A stretch of DNA of 41,191 nt from NCBI GenBank assembly GCA_019115285.1, contig DXDU01000107.1, forward strand, positions 1 to 41,191. Direction: 5' to 3'. A model generated the notes under the pieces. The model searched no databases. It saw only the letters and a program-made list of their open reading frames with translations, and was not told the DNA's origin. A program made the translations under genes and the position numbers. Of this stretch, positions 16,604 to 24,343 are shown one piece after another. The number at the start of each line of letters is the position of its first letter. Position 1 is the first letter of the stretch. Source of the stretch: Candidatus Acutalibacter pullistercoris (lineage in GTDB: Bacteria > Bacillota > Clostridia > Oscillospirales > Acutalibacteraceae).

Positions 16604-16636
16604 AACCGCAAATCACCTGCTGGAAAAAGCGGGACA

Positions 16637-18163
16637 ATGGATGGTTTTCCCATGATGACTTTGGAACGACAGAAGACGCCCTTCCGGGCCGGGGAAGTGA
16701 TGGCAGCCCTGCTGCTGGTGCAGCCCCTGCTGGACGTGCTCTCTTACTTTATGCAGGAGGCGGGGACCACCGCCTTCACCACGGCGCTGCGCATGGTGCT
16801 GCTGGCGGCGGTGAGCCTGTACGGCTTTGTGATCACCGACAGGAAAAAGCCGGTGCTGGCGCTGTACGCCGTGGCCCTGGCCTTTTGGGTGATCCACATG
16901 GCCGGGTGCTTCCGCCAGGGGTACCAGGACCCGGTGGGGGACGCCGCCGAGTACTTGAAGCTTTTGCAATTCCCCCTGTGGACGGCGGCCTTCTCCGCCA
17001 TGCTCCGCCAGGGGCAGGACCTGGACCGTCGGGCGGTGGCCTGCCTGGTGGGGGACTTTTTGCTGATCTTGTTCATCATCGCCCTGTCCTTCGGCCTGGG
17101 GATGCCTGTGTACACCTACGACTACCCCGACCGGGGGATACAGCTGGGGATCTTGGGGTGGTTCGGCGTGGCCAACGCCCAAAGCGCCATTGTGCTGGTG
17201 CTGGGGGCTCCCCTGCTGCTGTGGGGCTACCGGTCCGGCAAGCTGTGGGTGTTCACCCTGTGCGCCGCGGGGGGCTTCTCCCTGCTGTACTTCACCGGCA
17301 CCAGGCTCACCTATTTTGGGGCCATCCTTCTGGCGGGAGGGTTCTTCGTGCTGGTGCTCCTGGGCCGGAAGCGGTGGGTCTTCTGCCTGCCGCTGGCGGT
17401 AGCGCTGGCGCTGCTGGTGGCCTTCCAGGGGATGTCCCCCATGGTGGCCCGGCAGGCCATGTCCGTGGACTCCGACTCCTACTACGAGGAGCTGACCCAG
17501 CAGTACCTGGGAGAGGACAGCGATTTCGTCTACCGGGAGGGGGAGGAGATCCCCCCTGAGATCCTGGAGAAGATTCGGGCCCTGTACACGGAGGTGTACG
17601 GCAAACGGGGGATCTACAACACCATGCTCCTGGGGGATCTGATCCAGGAGTTTGGCGTGGACCGGGTGATGGAGGAGTACGGCTACACCGTGGACGGGGA
17701 ACTGCTCTACGACGTGCGGGACAAGAAGCTTCACGCCCTGCACCTGGTGTGGGAGGACCAGGACCTGTTCACCCACCTGTTTGGCTTTGAGTACGCCAAG
17801 GCCCAGATCGGCGTCACCAATTACGACCCGGAGAACGATTTCCCGGCCCTGCGGTATTTCTACGGCTATGTGGGCGCCGCCCTCTACGTGGGGTACTGTC
17901 TCTACTTCCCCCTGCTGGCACTGTGGCATCTGGTGAGAAAGCTGCGCAGCTTCTTCTCCTACCCCTGGGCGGAGGCGGGGACCTACCTTGCCATGCTGGC
18001 CTTCGGCTTTGGGGCGGCCCAGTTCTCCGGCCAGGTGCTGCGCAAGCCCAGCGTGACGGTGTACCTGTCCCTGGCGGCGGCGCTGCTGCTGGGGCTGTTC
18101 TCCCGGGAGAGGGAACCCCTGGAAAAGGGGGAAGAACCTGTTGTGCTCCCGGGGAAAATGTGA
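16637..18163 (+). CDS. O-antigen ligase-like polytopic membrane protein, copy 1
   Basis: A 508-residue protein with about ten to twelve membrane segments belongs to the O-antigen ligase/polymerase-like group of Firmicutes, which link or polymerise surface glycans on the outer face of the membrane. The N-terminal core includes ALLLVQPLLDVLSYF, GMPVYTYDY, FGVANAQSAIVLVLG and FTGTRLTYF. A large hydrophilic loop (about 275-400) ends with DPENDFPALRYFYGYVGAAL, after which two or three more segments follow. The start at 16637 is the first ATG downstream of the promoter; its RBS is weak, and ATGs at 16652/16655 are alternatives. It is a tandem paralogue of the next gene. The glycan is unknown. Confidence 0.75.
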   Translation: MDGFPMMTLERQKTPFRAGEVMAALLLVQPLLDVLSYFMQEAGTTAFTTALRMVLLAAVSLYGFVITDRKKPVLALYAVALAFWVIHMAGCFRQGYQDPVGDAAEYLKLLQFPLWTAAFSAMLRQGQDLDRRAVACLVGDFLLILFIIALSFGLGMPVYTYDYPDRGIQLGILGWFGVANAQSAIVLVLGAPLLLWGYRSGKLWVFTLCAAGGFSLLYFTGTRLTYFGAILLAGGFFVLVLLGRKRWVFCLPLAVALALLVAFQGMSPMVARQAMSVDSDSYYEELTQQYLGEDSDFVYREGEEIPPEILEKIRALYTEVYGKRGIYNTMLLGDLIQEFGVDRVMEEYGYTVDGELLYDVRDKKLHALHLVWEDQDLFTHLFGFEYAKAQIGVTNYDPENDFPALRYFYGYVGAALYVGYCLYFPLLALWHLVRKLRSFFSYPWAEAGTYLAMLAFGFGAAQFSGQVLRKPSVTVYLSLAAALLLGLFSREREPLEKGEEPVVLPGKM

Positions 18164-18169
18164 TATGAT
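18141..18169 (+). promoter_or_regulatory. promoter of the second O-antigen-ligase-like gene
   Basis: TTGTGC (18141-18146), 17-bp spacer and TATGAT (18164-18169). The -35 and spacer lie within the end of the upstream gene. Confidence 0.6.
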
Positions 18170-18211
18170 GAAAGCGGCATCTGTTGACATAATCTGGAAT
18201 GGGGAAGAGCT

Positions 18212-19822
18212 ATGATGAAGTCTTTGACTGGGTTCTTGGAGAGGCGCCTGTCCGCCCTGGTGCTGGGGCTGATGGTGATACAGCCGGCGCTGGACGTGTT
18301 CTCCTATTTTCTGGAGCAGCAGGTGGGGAGCAACACCATCTCCACGCTCCTGCGGTTCTTTTTGCTGGCGGCGGTGGCCTTGCTGGGCTTCGCGGTGAGC
18401 AAGAAAAAGAAGTGGTACTTTGTCTTTTACGGGGTCGCCTTCCTGTTCTGGATGGTCCACATGCTCAACTGTTTCCGCATCGGGTACACCTCGCTGTACA
18501 CCGACGCGGCCAACTACCTGCGGATTATCAACTTCCCCATCTTCACCCTGTCCCTGATCACCTTCTTCCAACAGGGCCGGGACGTGCGCAAGAGCATTTA
18601 CCTGGGCTTTGCCATCGACCTGGGGGAGGTGCTGCTGTTTACCGCCCTGCCCTGGGCGCTGGGCATGCCGGTGTACACCTACCGGGACCTGTATGTGGGC
18701 GTGCTGGGATGGTTCTCCACCCCCAGCGCCCAAAGCGCCGTGGTCACCCTGCTGGTGCCCATGGGGCTGTTGTGGGCCCTGCGCACGGAGAAGTACCCGG
18801 TCTTCGCCGTCACGGCGGTGCTGGGCTTTGGGCTTATGTTCCTCACCGGGACGAAATTTACCTTCTACTCCATCTTCATCGTGGCGGGGGCTTACCTGTT
18901 CCTCTTCGTCCTCCAGTGGAAGAAGCGGTACATCGCCTATGGAGCCACCCTGCTGGTGCTGCTGGCGGCGGTGGTCCTGTTCCGGGATCAGTCCCCCATG
19001 GCGGTGCGGGAGCACATGACCGCCTACTCCCAGGGGGAGTATACCCGGCTGGTGGAGGAGAGCCTGAAGAACAGCGGCGTGGATGAGAGCGAGATTGAGG
19101 ACCTGCAGGAGGGCGAGGAAGAGCTGGAGGAGGAGCAGGAGGAGGACTACCTGCCTCCGGAAGTGCACCTGGAGAACAAGCGCCGGGCCCTGCTGGGGGT
19201 CTACACCGACCGGGAGGTCTACGGGCCGTTTTTCGCCAGTTTCCACGAGCGCTTCGGCGCCTACCGGGTGATGGATGCCTACGGCTACACGGTGGACACC
19301 AGCGTCCTGTCTGATACCCGGGTGCGCAAGTCCATGTTTGCCGACCTGGTGTGGGAGGAGAAAGACTTCTTCACCAAGCTCTTCGGCTTTGAGTACGCCG
19401 ACATGATCACCCCCGAGGAGATCTACGACCTGGAAAACGACTTCCCTGCCATTTTCTTCTTCTGCGGCTATGTGGGATTTGCCCTGTACCTGCTGTTCTT
19501 CGCCTACTTTGGGTTTATCCTGCTGCGGGCCTTCTGGTGGAAGCTGAAAGACGCCGCCGGTGAACGGCCCAAGGGCAGGCCGGTGCTGTGGCACCTGCAG
19601 GTGTTCTGGGACGGCCTGCGCCGGTACCTGACCCTGGAGATGGGCGCTGTGGGCATGACCTTCCTGCTGGCGGCCATTGCCGCCCAGATCTCTGGCAACG
19701 TGCTGCGCCGGCCCAACGTCACCGTGTACTTCGCCGCGGCGGCGGCCTGCATCTACTTCCTGACGGTGGAGCAGCCCAAGCGCCAGCGGGGAGAGCTGCC
19801 GTCCCAGACGGAGCGCTTCTAA
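18212..19822 (+). CDS. O-antigen ligase-like polytopic membrane protein, copy 2
   Basis: A 536-residue paralogue of the preceding gene. It shares VIQPALDVFSYF, GMPVYTYRD, FSTPSAQSAVV, FLTGTKFTFYS, the loop motif LENDFPAIFFFCGYVGFALY and a C-terminal AAQISGNVLRRPNVTVYF (copy 1 has AAQFSGQVLRKPSVTVYL). The extracellular loop (about 265-420) includes a very acidic stretch of Glu around residues 290-315. The start has GGGGAAGAG upstream; a second Met follows directly. A role in ligation or polymerisation of a cell-surface polysaccharide is inferred from the family. Confidence 0.75.
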   Translation: MMKSLTGFLERRLSALVLGLMVIQPALDVFSYFLEQQVGSNTISTLLRFFLLAAVALLGFAVSKKKKWYFVFYGVAFLFWMVHMLNCFRIGYTSLYTDAANYLRIINFPIFTLSLITFFQQGRDVRKSIYLGFAIDLGEVLLFTALPWALGMPVYTYRDLYVGVLGWFSTPSAQSAVVTLLVPMGLLWALRTEKYPVFAVTAVLGFGLMFLTGTKFTFYSIFIVAGAYLFLFVLQWKKRYIAYGATLLVLLAAVVLFRDQSPMAVREHMTAYSQGEYTRLVEESLKNSGVDESEIEDLQEGEEELEEEQEEDYLPPEVHLENKRRALLGVYTDREVYGPFFASFHERFGAYRVMDAYGYTVDTSVLSDTRVRKSMFADLVWEEKDFFTKLFGFEYADMITPEEIYDLENDFPAIFFFCGYVGFALYLLFFAYFGFILLRAFWWKLKDAAGERPKGRPVLWHLQVFWDGLRRYLTLEMGAVGMTFLLAAIAAQISGNVLRRPNVTVYFAAAAACIYFLTVEQPKRQRGELPSQTERF

Positions 19823-20271: not shown

Positions 20272-20310
20272 GGGAAAAGGAAAAGGCCTGGGAAGCATCT
20301 CCCAGGCCTT
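20272..20310 (-). terminator. terminator of the peptide operon
   Basis: AAGGCCTGGGA (20283-20293) pairs with TCCCAGGCCTT (20300-20310). On the minus strand it runs into TTTTCCTTTT. It lies 68 bp beyond the last peptide gene. A second hairpin (CCGCGC / GCGCGG, 20334-20349) sits between. Confidence 0.75.
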
Positions 20311-20377
20311 TCCTTCGTTTCGAGGAGGAGGAGCCGCGCTTTCGCGCGGTTTTGTATTACTTCAATGAGTCCTTCCC

Positions 20378-20533
20378 TTAGTAGGGGAGACGGACGGAAA
20401 TCACATACCCGTTGACGTTCAGGAACGCTCTGTCGGTATCCACCTGTTCGTTGGCGAAGTAGCCAAGCGTTTCGGAGATACGAGCGGCCTGGGCGCTGTC
20501 GTTGACAAAGAATTTCTTCTTCAGCTTGCTCAT
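20378..20533 (-). CDS. small peptide of the NGYV-SVRLPY family, gene 5 of 5
   Basis: A 51-residue peptide starts MSKLKKKFFV and ends FLNVNGYVISVRLPY. The first half is basic and helix-forming. The second contains FANEQVDTDR, shared with the upstream paralogues, then the conserved C-terminus. The RBS is AGAAAGAAGGG. It has no signal peptide, no cysteine and no membrane segment. I do not recognise the family. Nucleotide identity with the neighbours is highest in the 3' half, showing descent by tandem duplication. It is last in the operon. Confidence 0.8.
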   Translation of the reverse strand: MSKLKKKFFVNDSAQAARISETLGYFANEQVDTDRAFLNVNGYVISVRLPY

Positions 20534-20566
20534 GGTGAAACCCTTCTTTCTAGGCTCCCTTACTCC

Positions 20567-20716
20567 TTAGTAGGGGAGATGCACAAACATCACAGAGCCG
20601 TTGCCGTTGCTCAGGCAAGCCATGTCCTGATCGTGGACGAACTGGTCCAGGGCCTCGGCCACCTGGGCGGAACGCTCTTTCTTCTCGTTGTTGAACAGTC
20701 TATTCATGAAGCTCAT
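20567..20716 (-). CDS. divergent small peptide of the same family, gene 4 of 5
   Basis: A 49-residue peptide starts MSFMNRLFNNEKKERSAQ and ends LSNGNGSVMFVHLPY. It keeps the N-terminal basic helix, the NG near the C-terminus and the terminal LPY, but lacks the FANEQVD block and replaces SVRLPY with FVHLPY. One cysteine is present (Cys34). The stop region CCCTTAGTAGGGGAG-like sequence is shared with the paralogues. RBS AGAAAGAGG precedes it. It is the most diverged member and may have a different partner or target. Confidence 0.75.
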   Translation of the reverse strand: MSFMNRLFNNEKKERSAQVAEALDQFVHDQDMACLSNGNGSVMFVHLPY

Positions 20717-20768
20717 ATCAGTTACCTCTTTCTGTAAATTAAAGTTGTTGTTGGAAGTTGGAAAGTGC

Positions 20769-20924
20769 TTAGTAGGGCAGTCGCACGCTCATCACGTAGC
20801 CGTTGACGTTCAGGAAAGCCTTGTCGTTGTCCACCTGCTCGTTGGCGAAGCGGCCCATGGTGTCGGCGATCCGGTTGGCCTGCACTTTGGTATCATTCTC
20901 GAAAAACTTCTTAATCATGCTCAT
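20769..20924 (-). CDS. small peptide of the NGYV-SVRLPY family, gene 3 of 5
   Basis: A 51-residue peptide starts MSMIKKFFENDTKVQANRIA and carries GRFANEQVDNDK before the C-terminus FLNVNGYVMSVRLPY. It aligns without gaps to gene 5 (20378-20533). RBS GAGAGAGGAA precedes the ATG. It lies 37 bp downstream of gene 2 and 52 bp upstream of gene 4. Confidence 0.82.
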   Translation of the reverse strand: MSMIKKFFENDTKVQANRIADTMGRFANEQVDNDKAFLNVNGYVMSVRLPY

Positions 20925-20961
20925 GGTGAATTCCTCTCTTTCTCTCTCTCACCGGCGGCCC

Positions 20962-21138
20962 TTAGTAGGGGAGCCGCACGCTCATCACATAGCCGTTGAC
21001 GTTCAGGAAAGCCTTATCGTTGTCCACCTGCTCGTTGGCGAAGCGGCACAGGCCTCCGGTCAGTCTGGCGTTCTGGGCAGCCTCTTGGTTCGCATGGGCG
21101 CCCATCACTTTAGAAGCGAATCGAATTACTTTGCTCAT
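20962..21138 (-). CDS. small peptide of the NGYV-SVRLPY family, gene 2 of 5
   Basis: A 58-residue peptide starts MSKVIRFASKVMGAHANQEA; its second half reads LCRFANEQVDNDKAF and then LNVNGYVMSVRLPY. It has a longer N-terminal helix than genes 3 and 5 and one cysteine (Cys31) at the same place as in gene 1. RBS AGAAAGGGG precedes the ATG. The 3' half is almost identical in DNA to gene 3. Confidence 0.82.
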   Translation of the reverse strand: MSKVIRFASKVMGAHANQEAAQNARLTGGLCRFANEQVDNDKAFLNVNGYVMSVRLPY

Positions 21139-21193
21139 GGTTACTACCCCTTTCTGAAAACTCGTACTGTCTTTGTATTTGTGACGCCGGCCC

Positions 21194-21367
21194 TTAGTAG
21201 GGGAGCCGGACGCTCATCACGTAGCCGTTGACGTTCAGGTAAGTTCGGTCCGTGTCTACGGACTCGTTGGCGAAGCGGCACAGGCCCTCGCTCAGTTTGT
21301 GGGCAGCCTTATTCTCCTCATGCGCTGCCGGGATCATCTTCGAAACGATTTTCATTGCCTTGCTCAT
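21194..21367 (-). CDS. small peptide of the NGYV-SVRLPY family, gene 1 of 5
   Basis: A 57-residue peptide starts MSKAMKIVSKMIPAAHEENK, followed by LSEGLCRFANESVDTDRT and the C-terminus YLNVNGYVMSVRLPY. It is first in the operon; the leader is about 64 nt from the predicted transcription start. RBS AGAAAGGGG precedes the ATG. Conservation of the last 15 residues across the family, against variable N-termini, suggests the C-terminus is the functional or recognised part. No modification enzyme, protease or exporter gene is adjacent. Confidence 0.82.
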   Translation of the reverse strand: MSKAMKIVSKMIPAAHEENKAAHKLSEGLCRFANESVDTDRTYLNVNGYVMSVRLPY

Positions 21368-21437
21368 GGTAACTACCCCTTTCTTAGGTTTCTGTAATCC
21401 GGGCCGCCTGTTTGGCGTCTCTCTTGATTACGGCCTC

Positions 21438-21466
21438 ATTATAAACCCGGTTTATAAACTTGTCAA
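21438..21466 (-). promoter_or_regulatory. peptide operon promoter with operator in the spacer
   Basis: On the minus strand TTGACA (21461-21466), a 17-bp spacer and TATAAT (21438-21443), a near-perfect sigma-A promoter. The perfect palindrome GTTTATAAAC (21450-21459) fills the spacer, where a bound repressor would block RNA polymerase. Further TTTATAAA cores lie upstream at 21472-21479 and 21503-21510. Confidence 0.85.
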
Positions 21467-21519
21467 GCGCTTTTATAAAGATTTTTCAAAGAATTTACGG
21501 AATTTATAAAGCGCACAAA

Positions 21520-21880: not shown

Positions 21881-21884
21881 AGAC

Positions 21885-21990
21885 AAAAGGGCCGCGGCAT
21901 TTGCCGCAGCCCTTTCGCCAGAGAATCTCTTCGCTGAAAAAACCTGAGAAATCAGCGTCCCGTCAGAGGGAAGTCCCGGTCCCTTTGACA
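21885..21990 (-). ncRNA. candidate small RNA under the same operator
   Basis: A strong minus-strand promoter (21997-22025) is followed after about 106 nt by a clear intrinsic terminator: GGGCTGCGGCA / TGCCGCGGCCC with a TTTT tail (21885-21912). No frame in between has an RBS, so the transcript is most likely non-coding. It contains a C-rich segment CTTCCCTCTG that could base-pair with GA-rich ribosome binding sites; this is inference. It is read toward the peptide operon, with which it shares its promoter layout. Confidence 0.55.
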
Positions 21991-21996
21991 AGACCC

Positions 21997-22025
21997 AGTA
22001 TAATGCCGGTTTATAAACTTGTCAA
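21997..22025 (-). promoter_or_regulatory. sRNA promoter with operator in the spacer
   Basis: TTGACA (22020-22025), 17-bp spacer and TATACT (21997-22002), with GTTTATAAAC at 22009-22018. The palindrome has exactly the same distance to the -35 as in the peptide operon promoter. A second near-match ATTTATAAAC lies at 22031-22040. Confidence 0.85.
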
Positions 22026-22109: not shown

Positions 22110-23186
22110 TCACTCTTTTGTCAGGTCCCGGACGCTGTCCCGGGGGATCAGGGCGGTGGGCAGCTCCAGCTTCAGGCTGGGGATGTGGAAGCCCAGCTTC
22201 TTGTTGCGCTGGAGGTTTCGCAGCATGGCCACGCACTCCCGGCCCATCAGATGCCGGTAATTGCGGACGCTTGTCAGGTTGGGCTCTACCATGGTGCAGA
22301 TGGACCTGTCGTCGAACCCGATGATGGAGATGTCCTGGGGGATCTTCAGGCCCTCCCGCTGCAAGGCCTTCATGGCCCGCCAGGCCAGCCTGTCATTTTC
22401 CGCCACCAAGGCGGTGGGCAGGCGCTCGGCGCTGCGGAACAGCTCCCGGAGGATGTCGAACTCCTCGGCCTCCGCCGCGTCCCCCGCGGTGAAGTAGTTC
22501 TCCCGCCGGTCCGCCAGGCCGTATTCCCGCAGGGCCTGGTGGAAGCACCGGCGGCGCTCCAGCAGGCTGTCGTTGCTTTTGCCGCTGTACACGTAGCCCA
22601 GGTTCTGGTGGCCCATGTTCTTTAAGTATTCCACCGCGGCGAAAATGCCCTGTTCGTTGTTGACGCACACGCTGCACACGTTCCGGTCCGGGCGGTAGGT
22701 GTCCACGAAGACGCAGGGGATGCCCAGGGATTCCAGGTCCGCCAGCATGGCGTCGGTGATGTGGTAGGTCTGCACGATGGCCCCCACGGCGTTGCCCGTG
22801 TCCTCCACCAGGCGCTTTAAGTTCCGGTTGCCCTGGTAGCTCATGTGCAGCACCACCAAGTTGTAGTGGCTGTCCCGGGCCTCCATCTCCGCCCCTTCCA
22901 GCACGGCGGGGTAGAAGGCGAACCTGTCGTTGTCCTCATCGAAGTTGGTGTAGATCAGATAGACGATCACCGGCCGGCTCTGGGGAGAGCTGTCCTGGTT
23001 TTCCCGGGGAAGGGCGGTGGAGGAGGAGAGCATGTTCTCGCACCCCAGCTCCCGGATCTTCTCCAGCAGGGAGTGGCGCAGGGAGTCGCTGATGCCGGGC
23101 TTATTGTTGAGGACCAGTGATATGGTGGCGGGAGAGACCCCCAGCTTTTTTGCCAGATCTTTCGCTTTCATGGTTGGTTTTTTCAC
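22110..23186 (-). CDS. LacI-family transcriptional repressor
   Basis: A 358-residue regulator has an N-terminal LacI helix-turn-helix (MKAKDLAKKLGVSPATISLV, about residues 6-25, with the hinge helix region near 50) and a periplasmic-binding-type effector domain. The C-terminal part shows IGFDDRSICTMVEPNLTSVR, typical of the family. The start is taken as GTG 23186, giving MKKPTMKAKDL; ATG at 23171 is possible, but neither has a strong RBS. GTTTATAAAC-like sites overlap its own promoter and two promoters downstream, so it probably represses itself, the candidate sRNA and the peptide operon. The inducer is unknown; no sugar catabolic gene is adjacent. Confidence 0.92.
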   Translation of the reverse strand: MKKPTMKAKDLAKKLGVSPATISLVLNNKPGISDSLRHSLLEKIRELGCENMLSSSTALPRENQDSSPQSRPVIVYLIYTNFDEDNDRFAFYPAVLEGAEMEARDSHYNLVVLHMSYQGNRNLKRLVEDTGNAVGAIVQTYHITDAMLADLESLGIPCVFVDTYRPDRNVCSVCVNNEQGIFAAVEYLKNMGHQNLGYVYSGKSNDSLLERRRCFHQALREYGLADRRENYFTAGDAAEAEEFDILRELFRSAERLPTALVAENDRLAWRAMKALQREGLKIPQDISIIGFDDRSICTMVEPNLTSVRNYRHLMGRECVAMLRNLQRNKKLGFHIPSLKLELPTALIPRDSVRDLTKE

Positions 23187-23219: not shown

Positions 23220-23268
23220 GTTTATAAATCTTTATAAAATATTATACCCCTTTTTCGGGGAATTGCAA
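23220..23268 (-). promoter_or_regulatory. lacI promoter with overlapping operators
   Basis: On the minus strand TTGCAA (23263-23268), 16-bp spacer, TATAAT (23241-23246). Two TTTATAAA sites (23231-23239 and 23220-23229) lie at and after the start of transcription, a layout for autorepression. Confidence 0.75.
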
Positions 23269-23641: not shown

Positions 23642-23704
23642 TTTCCCCGGGAGTTTGGGACGGGAGGTTTCATTTTTCAAATCCTATTGAGAGGGAGAAT
23701 CTCT

Positions 23705-24343
23705 ATGACCAACACCGCTTCATCCAAACGTATTTTCAACCTGGTGCTGGGGGGCGTCATGGTGGCAATGGCCACTGTGCTGGGCTTCATCAAGCTGTAC
23801 GACGCCCCCTACGGCGGGTCCATCACCGTCTGCTCCATGCTGCCCATCCTGTTCTTCGGCTACCGCTGCGGCCTGAAGTGGGGCCTGGGGGCCGGCTTTG
23901 TGAACAGCGTCCTCCAGCTTTTGCTGGGCATGAGCGCCTTAAAGGGCGTCAGCGCCGGGGTGCTGGTGGGCTCCATCTTCCTGGATTACCTCATCGCCTT
24001 TACCGTGCTGGGCCTGGCCGGCATGTTCCGGGGGAAGATTAAGAACGACGCCCTGGCCTTCACCCTGGGCAGCCTGGTGGCCATGCTCCTGCGGTACCTG
24101 TGCTCCTTCCTGTCCGGGTGGCTGCTGTGGGTGGACGTGGTAGAGGACGCCGGCTACATGCAGGAGGTCATCGGCGCCTACATCCCCGCCCTCTCCGGCC
24201 TGACCGGCAACACCCTGGCCATTGTGTACTCCCTGGTGTACAACGGCGTGTACATGATCCCCGAGATCATCCTCACCTGCGTGGTGGGCTTCCTGCTGGT
24301 GCAGTTCGCCGGGAACCAGATTCTGGACAAGAAAGACCAGTAA
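23705..24343 (+). CDS. thiT: ECF transporter S component for thiamine
   Basis: ThiT is the membrane substrate-binding subunit that captures thiamine and works with a shared ECF module (EcfAA'T) encoded elsewhere. The 212-residue product has six membrane segments and begins MTNTASSKRIFNLVLGGVMV. The segment FIKLYDAPYGGSITVCSMLP matches the ThiT loop 1 region, and the later YSLVYNGVYMIPE belongs to the thiamine-site helix. The TPP riboswitch directly upstream confirms the substrate. GAGAGGGAG serves as RBS. Confidence 0.95.
   Translation: MTNTASSKRIFNLVLGGVMVAMATVLGFIKLYDAPYGGSITVCSMLPILFFGYRCGLKWGLGAGFVNSVLQLLLGMSALKGVSAGVLVGSIFLDYLIAFTVLGLAGMFRGKIKNDALAFTLGSLVAMLLRYLCSFLSGWLLWVDVVEDAGYMQEVIGAYIPALSGLTGNTLAIVYSLVYNGVYMIPEIILTCVVGFLLVQFAGNQILDKKDQ

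Follow-up and report, generated by a model that had tools for sequence, protein, structure and literature searches.

A candidate LacI-repressed operon of tandem small proteins with a possible RNA output in Candidatus Acutalibacter pullistercoris

The peptide array and its regulatory region

The window analysed here, i.e. the whole 41,191-nucleotide stretch of contig DXDU01000107.1 from Candidatus Acutalibacter pullistercoris, carries on its minus strand a LacI-family regulator gene and a series of small-peptide genes (Table 1). As a sequence-only reading of this DNA had stated, five open reading frames of 49 to 58 amino acids lie in tandem between 20378 and 21367, each with its own purine-rich ribosome-binding site (RBS) close upstream. 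Four of the five peptides share the C-terminus [FY]LNVNGYV[MI]SVRLPY together with FANE[SQ]VD, and the fifth (P0002) retains NGNGSV and LPY, so that the common ending with FANE-VD in four copies, and with NG and LPY in the other, had also been recognised correctly. The description of the N-termini as basic does not apply to P0002, which is acidic (pI 5.4, net charge -2). Since the array has one promoter and one terminator, the five genes probably form a single transcript (operon). Two P0002-like paralogues (..LDNGNGSVTYYRGL) are found elsewhere in the same genome (G000:C115, L019:4051-4385), between a gene for a LysR-type regulator and a downstream gene reading like an aldo/keto reductase. Glycogen genes, read as glgB, glgC, glgD and glgA, are also present in the window, at a distance of 4-11 kb.

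Table 1. Features of the locus, in the coordinates of the window
Feature	Positions	Strand	Basis
LacI gene, its terminator, second box-bearing promoter with candidate RNA, five-peptide operon	23186-20280	-	
Double box TTTATAAAGATTTATAAA, directly 3' of the -10 of the lacI promoter (23268-23241)	23221..23238	-	
LacI-family regulator gene, 358 aa (LacI HTH and Peripla_BP_3)	22110..23186	-	Pfam
Second TTGACAAGTTTATAAACC operator/promoter, -10 TATACT ending at 21997	22008..22025	-	
Short candidate RNA (ca. 110 nt) driven by the second promoter	21881..21990	-	sequence and fold; presumed extent
Peptide promoter/operator: TTGACA-N17-TATAAT, TTTATAAA boxes in the spacer and just upstream	21438..21479	-	
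Peptide gene 1, P0005, 57 aa	21194..21367	-	
Peptide gene 2, P0004, 58 aa	20962..21138	-	
Peptide gene 3, P0003, 51 aa	20769..20924	-	
Peptide gene 4, P0002, 49 aa, divergent and acidic	20567..20716	-	
Peptide gene 5, P0001, 51 aa	20378..20533	-	
Operon 3' end: GCGCG hairpin, unpaired CTCCTCCTCGAAA tract, terminator stem 20313-20280	20280..20377	-	

The peptide promoter (21466-21438) matches the sigma-70 consensus at 12 of 12 positions, and a further box pair upstream of it reaches 21510. Palindromic TTTATAAA boxes are present both in this promoter and in that of the upstream LacI-family gene. The product of the latter combines an HTH with a periplasmic-binding-protein-like domain, as in the LacI/GalR family (Pfam LacI, 1.4e-7, 31.6 bits for a cut-off of 27; Peripla_BP_3, 3.5e-32, 112.2 bits for a cut-off of 26.5), and it falls below every NCBIfam equivalog cut-off. 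The TTTATAAAGATTTATAAA double box is probably a site of autorepression; a box pair is also present in the lacI promoter of relatives. The longer element TTGACAAGTTTATAAACC occurs twice on the minus strand of the window (21466-21449 and 22025-22008), against 0.01 occurrences expected from shuffled sequences. The candidate RNA downstream of its second copy has at its end a G+C-rich hairpin followed by a short T tail, a terminator that is absent from the calls of the terminator scan. Over the 2.02 Mb of this genome, only four double-box matches were identified, all in the window, at the peptide promoter, the lacI promoter and the promoter at 22025 (control: 0).

Relatives of the array and of its promoter

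The window peptides belong to an undescribed family. That no known family could be recognised, as the sequence-only reading had remarked, was confirmed by our searches of Pfam, NCBIfam, PHROGs, PADLOC and the PDB, none of which returned a credible relative. None of the five window peptides matched a Pfam or NCBIfam family at E ≤ 10, and the members of profiles A4 and A2 gave only isolated matches to curated profiles, each to a single member. For nine peptides, 0 PADLOC families were obtained at E ≤ 0.1, i.e. no profile match of the kind that would indicate anti-phage defence. A sequence search of the PDB with A2 retrieved two designed proteins, 4rv1 (8.6e-8) and 4hxt (6e-4); we took these as an effect of composition, and no stretch passed alone. 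None of the 184 Foldseek matches against the PDB reached E ≤ 0.001. A scan of genome contigs with the window peptides gave no match; a second scan, with type B, matched five named loci (Bacterium D16-76, Neglectibacter sp. X58, an Oscillospiraceae bacterium of the MGBC set and two uncultured Clostridia MAGs). In the literature, we found no description of the peptide family, for which a small-protein catalogue may hold an entry, nothing joining Neglectibacter with a small protein, and nothing joining TTTATAAA, the LacI family and an operator.

Relatives within the genus have between 2 and 5 diverged copies, arranged as in the window, and the neighbours that the sequence-only reading had singled out, the LacI gene and the GTTTATAAAC promoter, are conserved. 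A profile of the five window peptides matched 6 of the 29 genus genomes at E ≤ 0.1: a two-copy array in G027, which adjoins the same pair of O-antigen-ligase-like genes as the window, and weaker matches in four further genomes and at G000:C115. The broader profile A2 matched 8 of the 29 genomes at E < 1e-10 and 10 at E ≤ 0.1; the five named loci given above are among these. Tandem arrays lie directly 3' of a LacI homologue in G007, G009, G016 and G023. Orthologous positions A, B and C follow one another in order in G007, G023 and G025; the same order, with an extra B-type copy, is found in G009 and G016, the latter having a further C-like copy as well. In the family sample, A2 matched 6 of the 398 genomes at E ≤ 0.01, only G000 and G007 strongly; the match in G247 is real by synteny, and those in G114, G072 and G189 were rejected as background inside long frames. 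In the order sample, 2 of 394 genomes were matched, both of the genus studied here. G226 and G247 represent two further genera; in each, the peptide promoter and A-like peptides come after a LacI homologue (one peptide in G226; one in G247, with three ORFs at a second site of this genome).

We also searched for the composite promoter TTGACANNTTTATAAANNNGGTTTATAAT, allowing up to two mismatches. In the genus, 18 sites were identified in 17 of 29 genomes, against 0 of 29 for the reversed control. With at most one mismatch, 15 of the 29 genomes have one site each, and all 15 sites lead into small-peptide ORFs (14 complete, that of G005 being cut by the contig end). The three sites with two mismatches correspond to a standalone short RNA in G027 and to two unrelated positions, at a tRNA in G019 and at another gene in G024. 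In the family sample (398 genomes), all seven exact promoter sites, from six genomes, precede peptide ORFs, and none of the six one-mismatch sites does. Within the genus, the promoter search added seven genomes without a strong peptide match (G003, G006, G008, G010, G011, G020 and G026). Their peptides are of type D (G011) or type E (the other six, with the pattern RRQ..NYERFMQEKADVFQVT..KEQAMFW), while the G005 peptide combines A-type ends with a FERFAREAS core. In hhalign, the basic/RF.xE.AD core of type E aligns with the other types over only 17-20 columns, with a probability of 52-54%, a weak link; the shared promoter and the tandem layout are the stronger argument for kinship. In bacterial genomes, annotation is poorest for small proteins, and this family, which is missing from profile libraries, is anchored by a promoter that finds the types missed by sequence search. 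Regulation can therefore be used to discover fast-evolving small proteins.

The LacI gene and the peptides occur together. A LacI homologue with at least 65% identity was found in 8 of the 29 genus genomes, and these are the eight with strong peptide matches. At E ≤ 1e-100, a LacI homologue is present in 11 of the 15 genomes with a peptide promoter, vs. 2 of the 14 without (P = 0.0025, Fisher test). In the remaining four of these 15 genomes, the LacI gene is more distant, a depth to which promoter-less genomes were searched in the family sample only. In type E arrays, the peptides are not beside lacI. Conversely, G028 has a LacI gene with 60% identity and neither peptide promoter nor peptide match, as does G022 (G022:C5, L080), whose lacI reads with one in-frame TGA. 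The exact pair TTTATAAAN{1,24}TTTATAAA matches in 18 of 20 genomes, mostly at lacI and peptide promoters; with the reversed pair as control, 7 of the 20 genomes gave matches too, so that single additional double-box sites have to be considered with care.

Some other genes recur around these loci. A Thia_YuaJ (ThiT-like) transporter gene neighbours the LacI gene in the window (23642-24343) and at 10 of 33 loci; no TPP riboswitch match was found in Rfam for the window copy. A pair of genes for O-antigen-ligase-like membrane proteins lies beside lacI or the arrays in the window (16616-19822, convergent with the peptide operon) and at 6 of 33 loci, with a single gene in G123. In this last genome, the LacI homologue (G123:C12, L094) has one in-frame TGA, and no peptide promoter was found.

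Selection, peptide properties and alternative readings

Pooled pN/pS values were 0.34 (9 comparisons), 0.25 (5) and 0.33 (5) in the sets of orthologues, and 0.48 for 11 paralogue or mixed pairs. Given the values of 0.25-0.34 between orthologues, the peptide ORFs are almost certainly translated. Moreover, with the same layout in related genomes and purifying selection between orthologues, chance or non-coding ORFs can be ruled out. The sequence-only reading was right in proposing tandem duplication and selection. For P0002, the pN/pS test gives no support for constraint, the value against its neighbour P0003 being 0.99. Over their final 15 codons, the four similar copies of the window gave a pN of 0-0.12 and a pS of 0.19-0.44, on few sites. 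Selection is not confined to the C-terminal segment: between distant relatives, the motif is replaced (types D and E), and what can still be aligned across types is the short basic/RF.xE.AD core.

Two AlphaFold models show one long helix followed by a C-terminal beta-hairpin with its turn at the conserved N-G, at modest confidence (pLDDT 69.6 and 68.6; pTM 0.35 and 0.28). The C-terminal motif is thus predicted, with modest confidence, to be a beta-hairpin behind a long, mostly basic helix, and such a turn would account for the strongest conservation in types A-C and W being at N-x-N-G. This motif is missing from type E.

Conservation of the C-terminus among the window copies would suit a secreted signal or a RiPP precursor with a conserved C-terminal product, as would a radical SAM/SPASM gene upstream of lacI in G007, G023 and G025. 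However, this gene, which looks like that for the SCIFF maturase, lies on the other strand and is missing next to the remaining arrays that we examined; we rejected the link as particular to three genomes. The C-terminus is not retained from one type to another but replaced, the combination of an adjacent maturation enzyme with a variable core was not found, and the window holds no maturation or export gene, in line with the earlier remark that no modifying enzyme or exporter is adjacent. We therefore consider this reading highly improbable.

The 44 peptides scored all have a negative GRAVY; 41 are net positive, 41 have a positive N-terminal half, and P0002 and two others are the acidic exceptions. 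These values, and the lack of any exporter, protease or immunity gene recurring beside the arrays, leave the secreted signal or toxin suggested by the sequence-only reading unsupported. Tandem small cationic peptides resemble multi-peptide leaderless bacteriocins, and the rapid diversification of the family would fit toxin-like peptides of this type, released without an exporter. Against this stand the hydrophilicity of all 44 peptides, the lack of a PADLOC match and the absence of a recurring immunity or transporter gene beside the arrays in annotated loci; amphipathic peptides with immunity or transport genes nearby, the mark of leaderless bacteriocins, were not found. Such a function has, in our opinion, little probability. 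It is unlikely, although somewhat less so, that the peptides are abundant structural or nucleic-acid-binding proteins, whose basic helices would coat RNA, DNA or membrane and whose paralogues would co-assemble, the 3' tract serving only mRNA stability or termination. The prevalence of positive charge, the recurring A, B, C order (which suits hetero-assembly) and the perfect promoter with strong RBSs (which suit a high dose) favour it, but dedicated LacI repression and an extreme turnover of sequence between lineages would be unusual for structural proteins, and three peptides are acidic.

Two of our observations involve cell-wall amidases. All six type E arrays adjoin an Amidase_3 gene. In G007, a distant single-copy family member (G007:C72, L092:4778-4942, minus strand) lies just 5' of an Amidase_2 gene; the surrounding stretch is prophage-like, with genes for a phage integrase and a reverse transcriptase (RVT_1). 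The latter, near a tail-like ORF, may belong to a diversity-generating retroelement. The family could accordingly come from prophages, or be shared with them, as a lysis-linked module of a phage or mobile element acting with these amidases. Yet the Amidase_3 gene is convergent with the arrays and not co-transcribed, no relative was found in phage and plasmid records (searched with P0004 only) or, by three scans, in IMG/VR, and the lacI-linked arrays are chromosomal in context; we regard such an origin as improbable.

The 3' end of the transcript and the proposed mode of action

The sequence-only reading had overlooked that the regulatory frame, including the RNA 3' end, is conserved at least as much as the peptides. 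In single-sequence folds, the 3' tracts are largely unpaired, and they are CU-rich, as would be expected for pairing to Shine-Dalgarno sequences. The same 16-nt tract, AACAATACATCCTCAT, is found exactly before a strong terminator in G007, G009, G016, G023 and G025 and in G226, from another genus; shorter versions occur in G005 (13 nt) and in the standalone RNA of G027 (11 nt). None of 5000 shuffles reached a shared tract of 15 nt, and the spacers that separate the peptide genes have no more than 15 nt in common, in most cases no more than 10. The six type E genomes have a different common tract, TTTTCGTCACTCCC. In the window genome, and likewise in G027, the CU-rich CTCCTCCTCGAAA (13 nt) follows a GCGCG hairpin. 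As the window operon has no AACAATACATCCTCAT tract and shares CTCCTCCTCGAAA only with G027, the RNA part of our reading is weakest in this genome; Rfam gave no match at the window 3' end. The standalone box-controlled transcript of G027 carries TACATCCTCAT, followed by a terminator. Searching 80 genomes for the tract pattern gave nine sites in eight genomes, six of them at peptide operons and one at this standalone RNA. Another, at a contig edge (G005:C24), looks like one more operon end, and the site at G008:C3, without terminator or box, is probably due to chance.

Of the options of the sequence-only reading, small regulators of a cell component fits best. The reading that we prefer, with slightly less than even confidence, is that a LacI-repressed operon encodes small regulatory proteins of the cytosol and probably has a base-pairing RNA half as well. 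The LacI-family repressor would bind the TTTATAAA boxes in the spacer and just upstream, keeping a very strong promoter shut, and would limit its own synthesis through boxes of the same kind. Release of the repressor by an effector would give one transcript and a burst of several paralogous small proteins, which, with their long, mostly basic helix and short beta-hairpin, would bind a cellular target and adjust it. At the 3' end, the unpaired CU-rich tract before the strong terminator would probably base-pair with Shine-Dalgarno regions of other mRNAs. The computations show the family, its selection, the architecture of the promoter, the joint occurrence with the LacI gene and, in relatives, the conserved 3' tract; repression, induction, protein binding and RNA activity are steps that we infer.

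The domain layout and autoregulation-like operator of the regulator recall LacI/GalR repressors such as CytR, RbsR, PurR and CcpA, from which it differs by its scores below the NCBIfam equivalog cut-offs and its TTTATAAA-type operator. As for the transcript, the orthologue pN/pS and the conserved RBSs suggest that it encodes translated small proteins, as a dual-function RNA does. In Bacillota, SR1/SR1P of Bacillus subtilis is such an RNA, whose small protein modulates an enzyme; SR1P is single-copy. The SgrS/SgrT system of Escherichia coli consists of a small RNA and a small protein acting on glucose uptake (PMC3901232). Here too, a carbon-type regulator, small soluble proteins and a presumed RNA output would meet at one locus, but the regulator is of LacI type, and 2-5 tandem paralogues replace a single SgrT with a known target (EIICB-Glc). 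In VcdRP of Vibrio cholerae, which is repressed by CRP, the 29-amino-acid VcdP binds citrate synthase, and VcdR acts by base-pairing through a segment in which four consecutive cytosines are required (PMC8672173). The likeness would be a metabolic repressor over a transcript with an ORF and a C-rich segment; in contrast to the single protein of VcdRP, several proteins of 47-71 amino acids and a putative 3'-terminal RNA tract are found here. Our best reading is that the system works like SgrS/SgrT or VcdRP, as a candidate dual-function RNA.

A broader reading, possible yet on the doubtful side, is that a dual-output metabolic switch (RNA plus several small proteins) consists of a regulatory frame that is fixed and a protein cassette that can be exchanged, the protein part being tuned to the target of each host. 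Across species and three genera, the repressor, the box promoter and the 3' RNA segment would still be recognised, while the tandem proteins diverge beyond recognition into sets specific to each lineage. If the RNA half is true, gut Clostridia would have a dual-function transcript that encodes several proteins.

Further pairing is seen at the 5' side of the transcripts. The operon leaders fold through GTAATC/GATTAC in the window genome and GTGATC/GATCAC in G027, a compensatory difference, and in G007, G009, G023 and G025 the leader GTAAGCTA complements TAGCTTAC of the last spacer. Finally, TTTATAAA double boxes occur 5' of the same binding-protein-dependent transport permease gene in G011, G023 and G025 (L143, 776-804; L148, 883-900; L149, 1062-1079), which may be a further member of the regulon. 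Double boxes also lie near the start of an ORF beginning MIFGR in G026 and G003 (L144, 1157-1186 and 1220-1236; L150, 996-1025).
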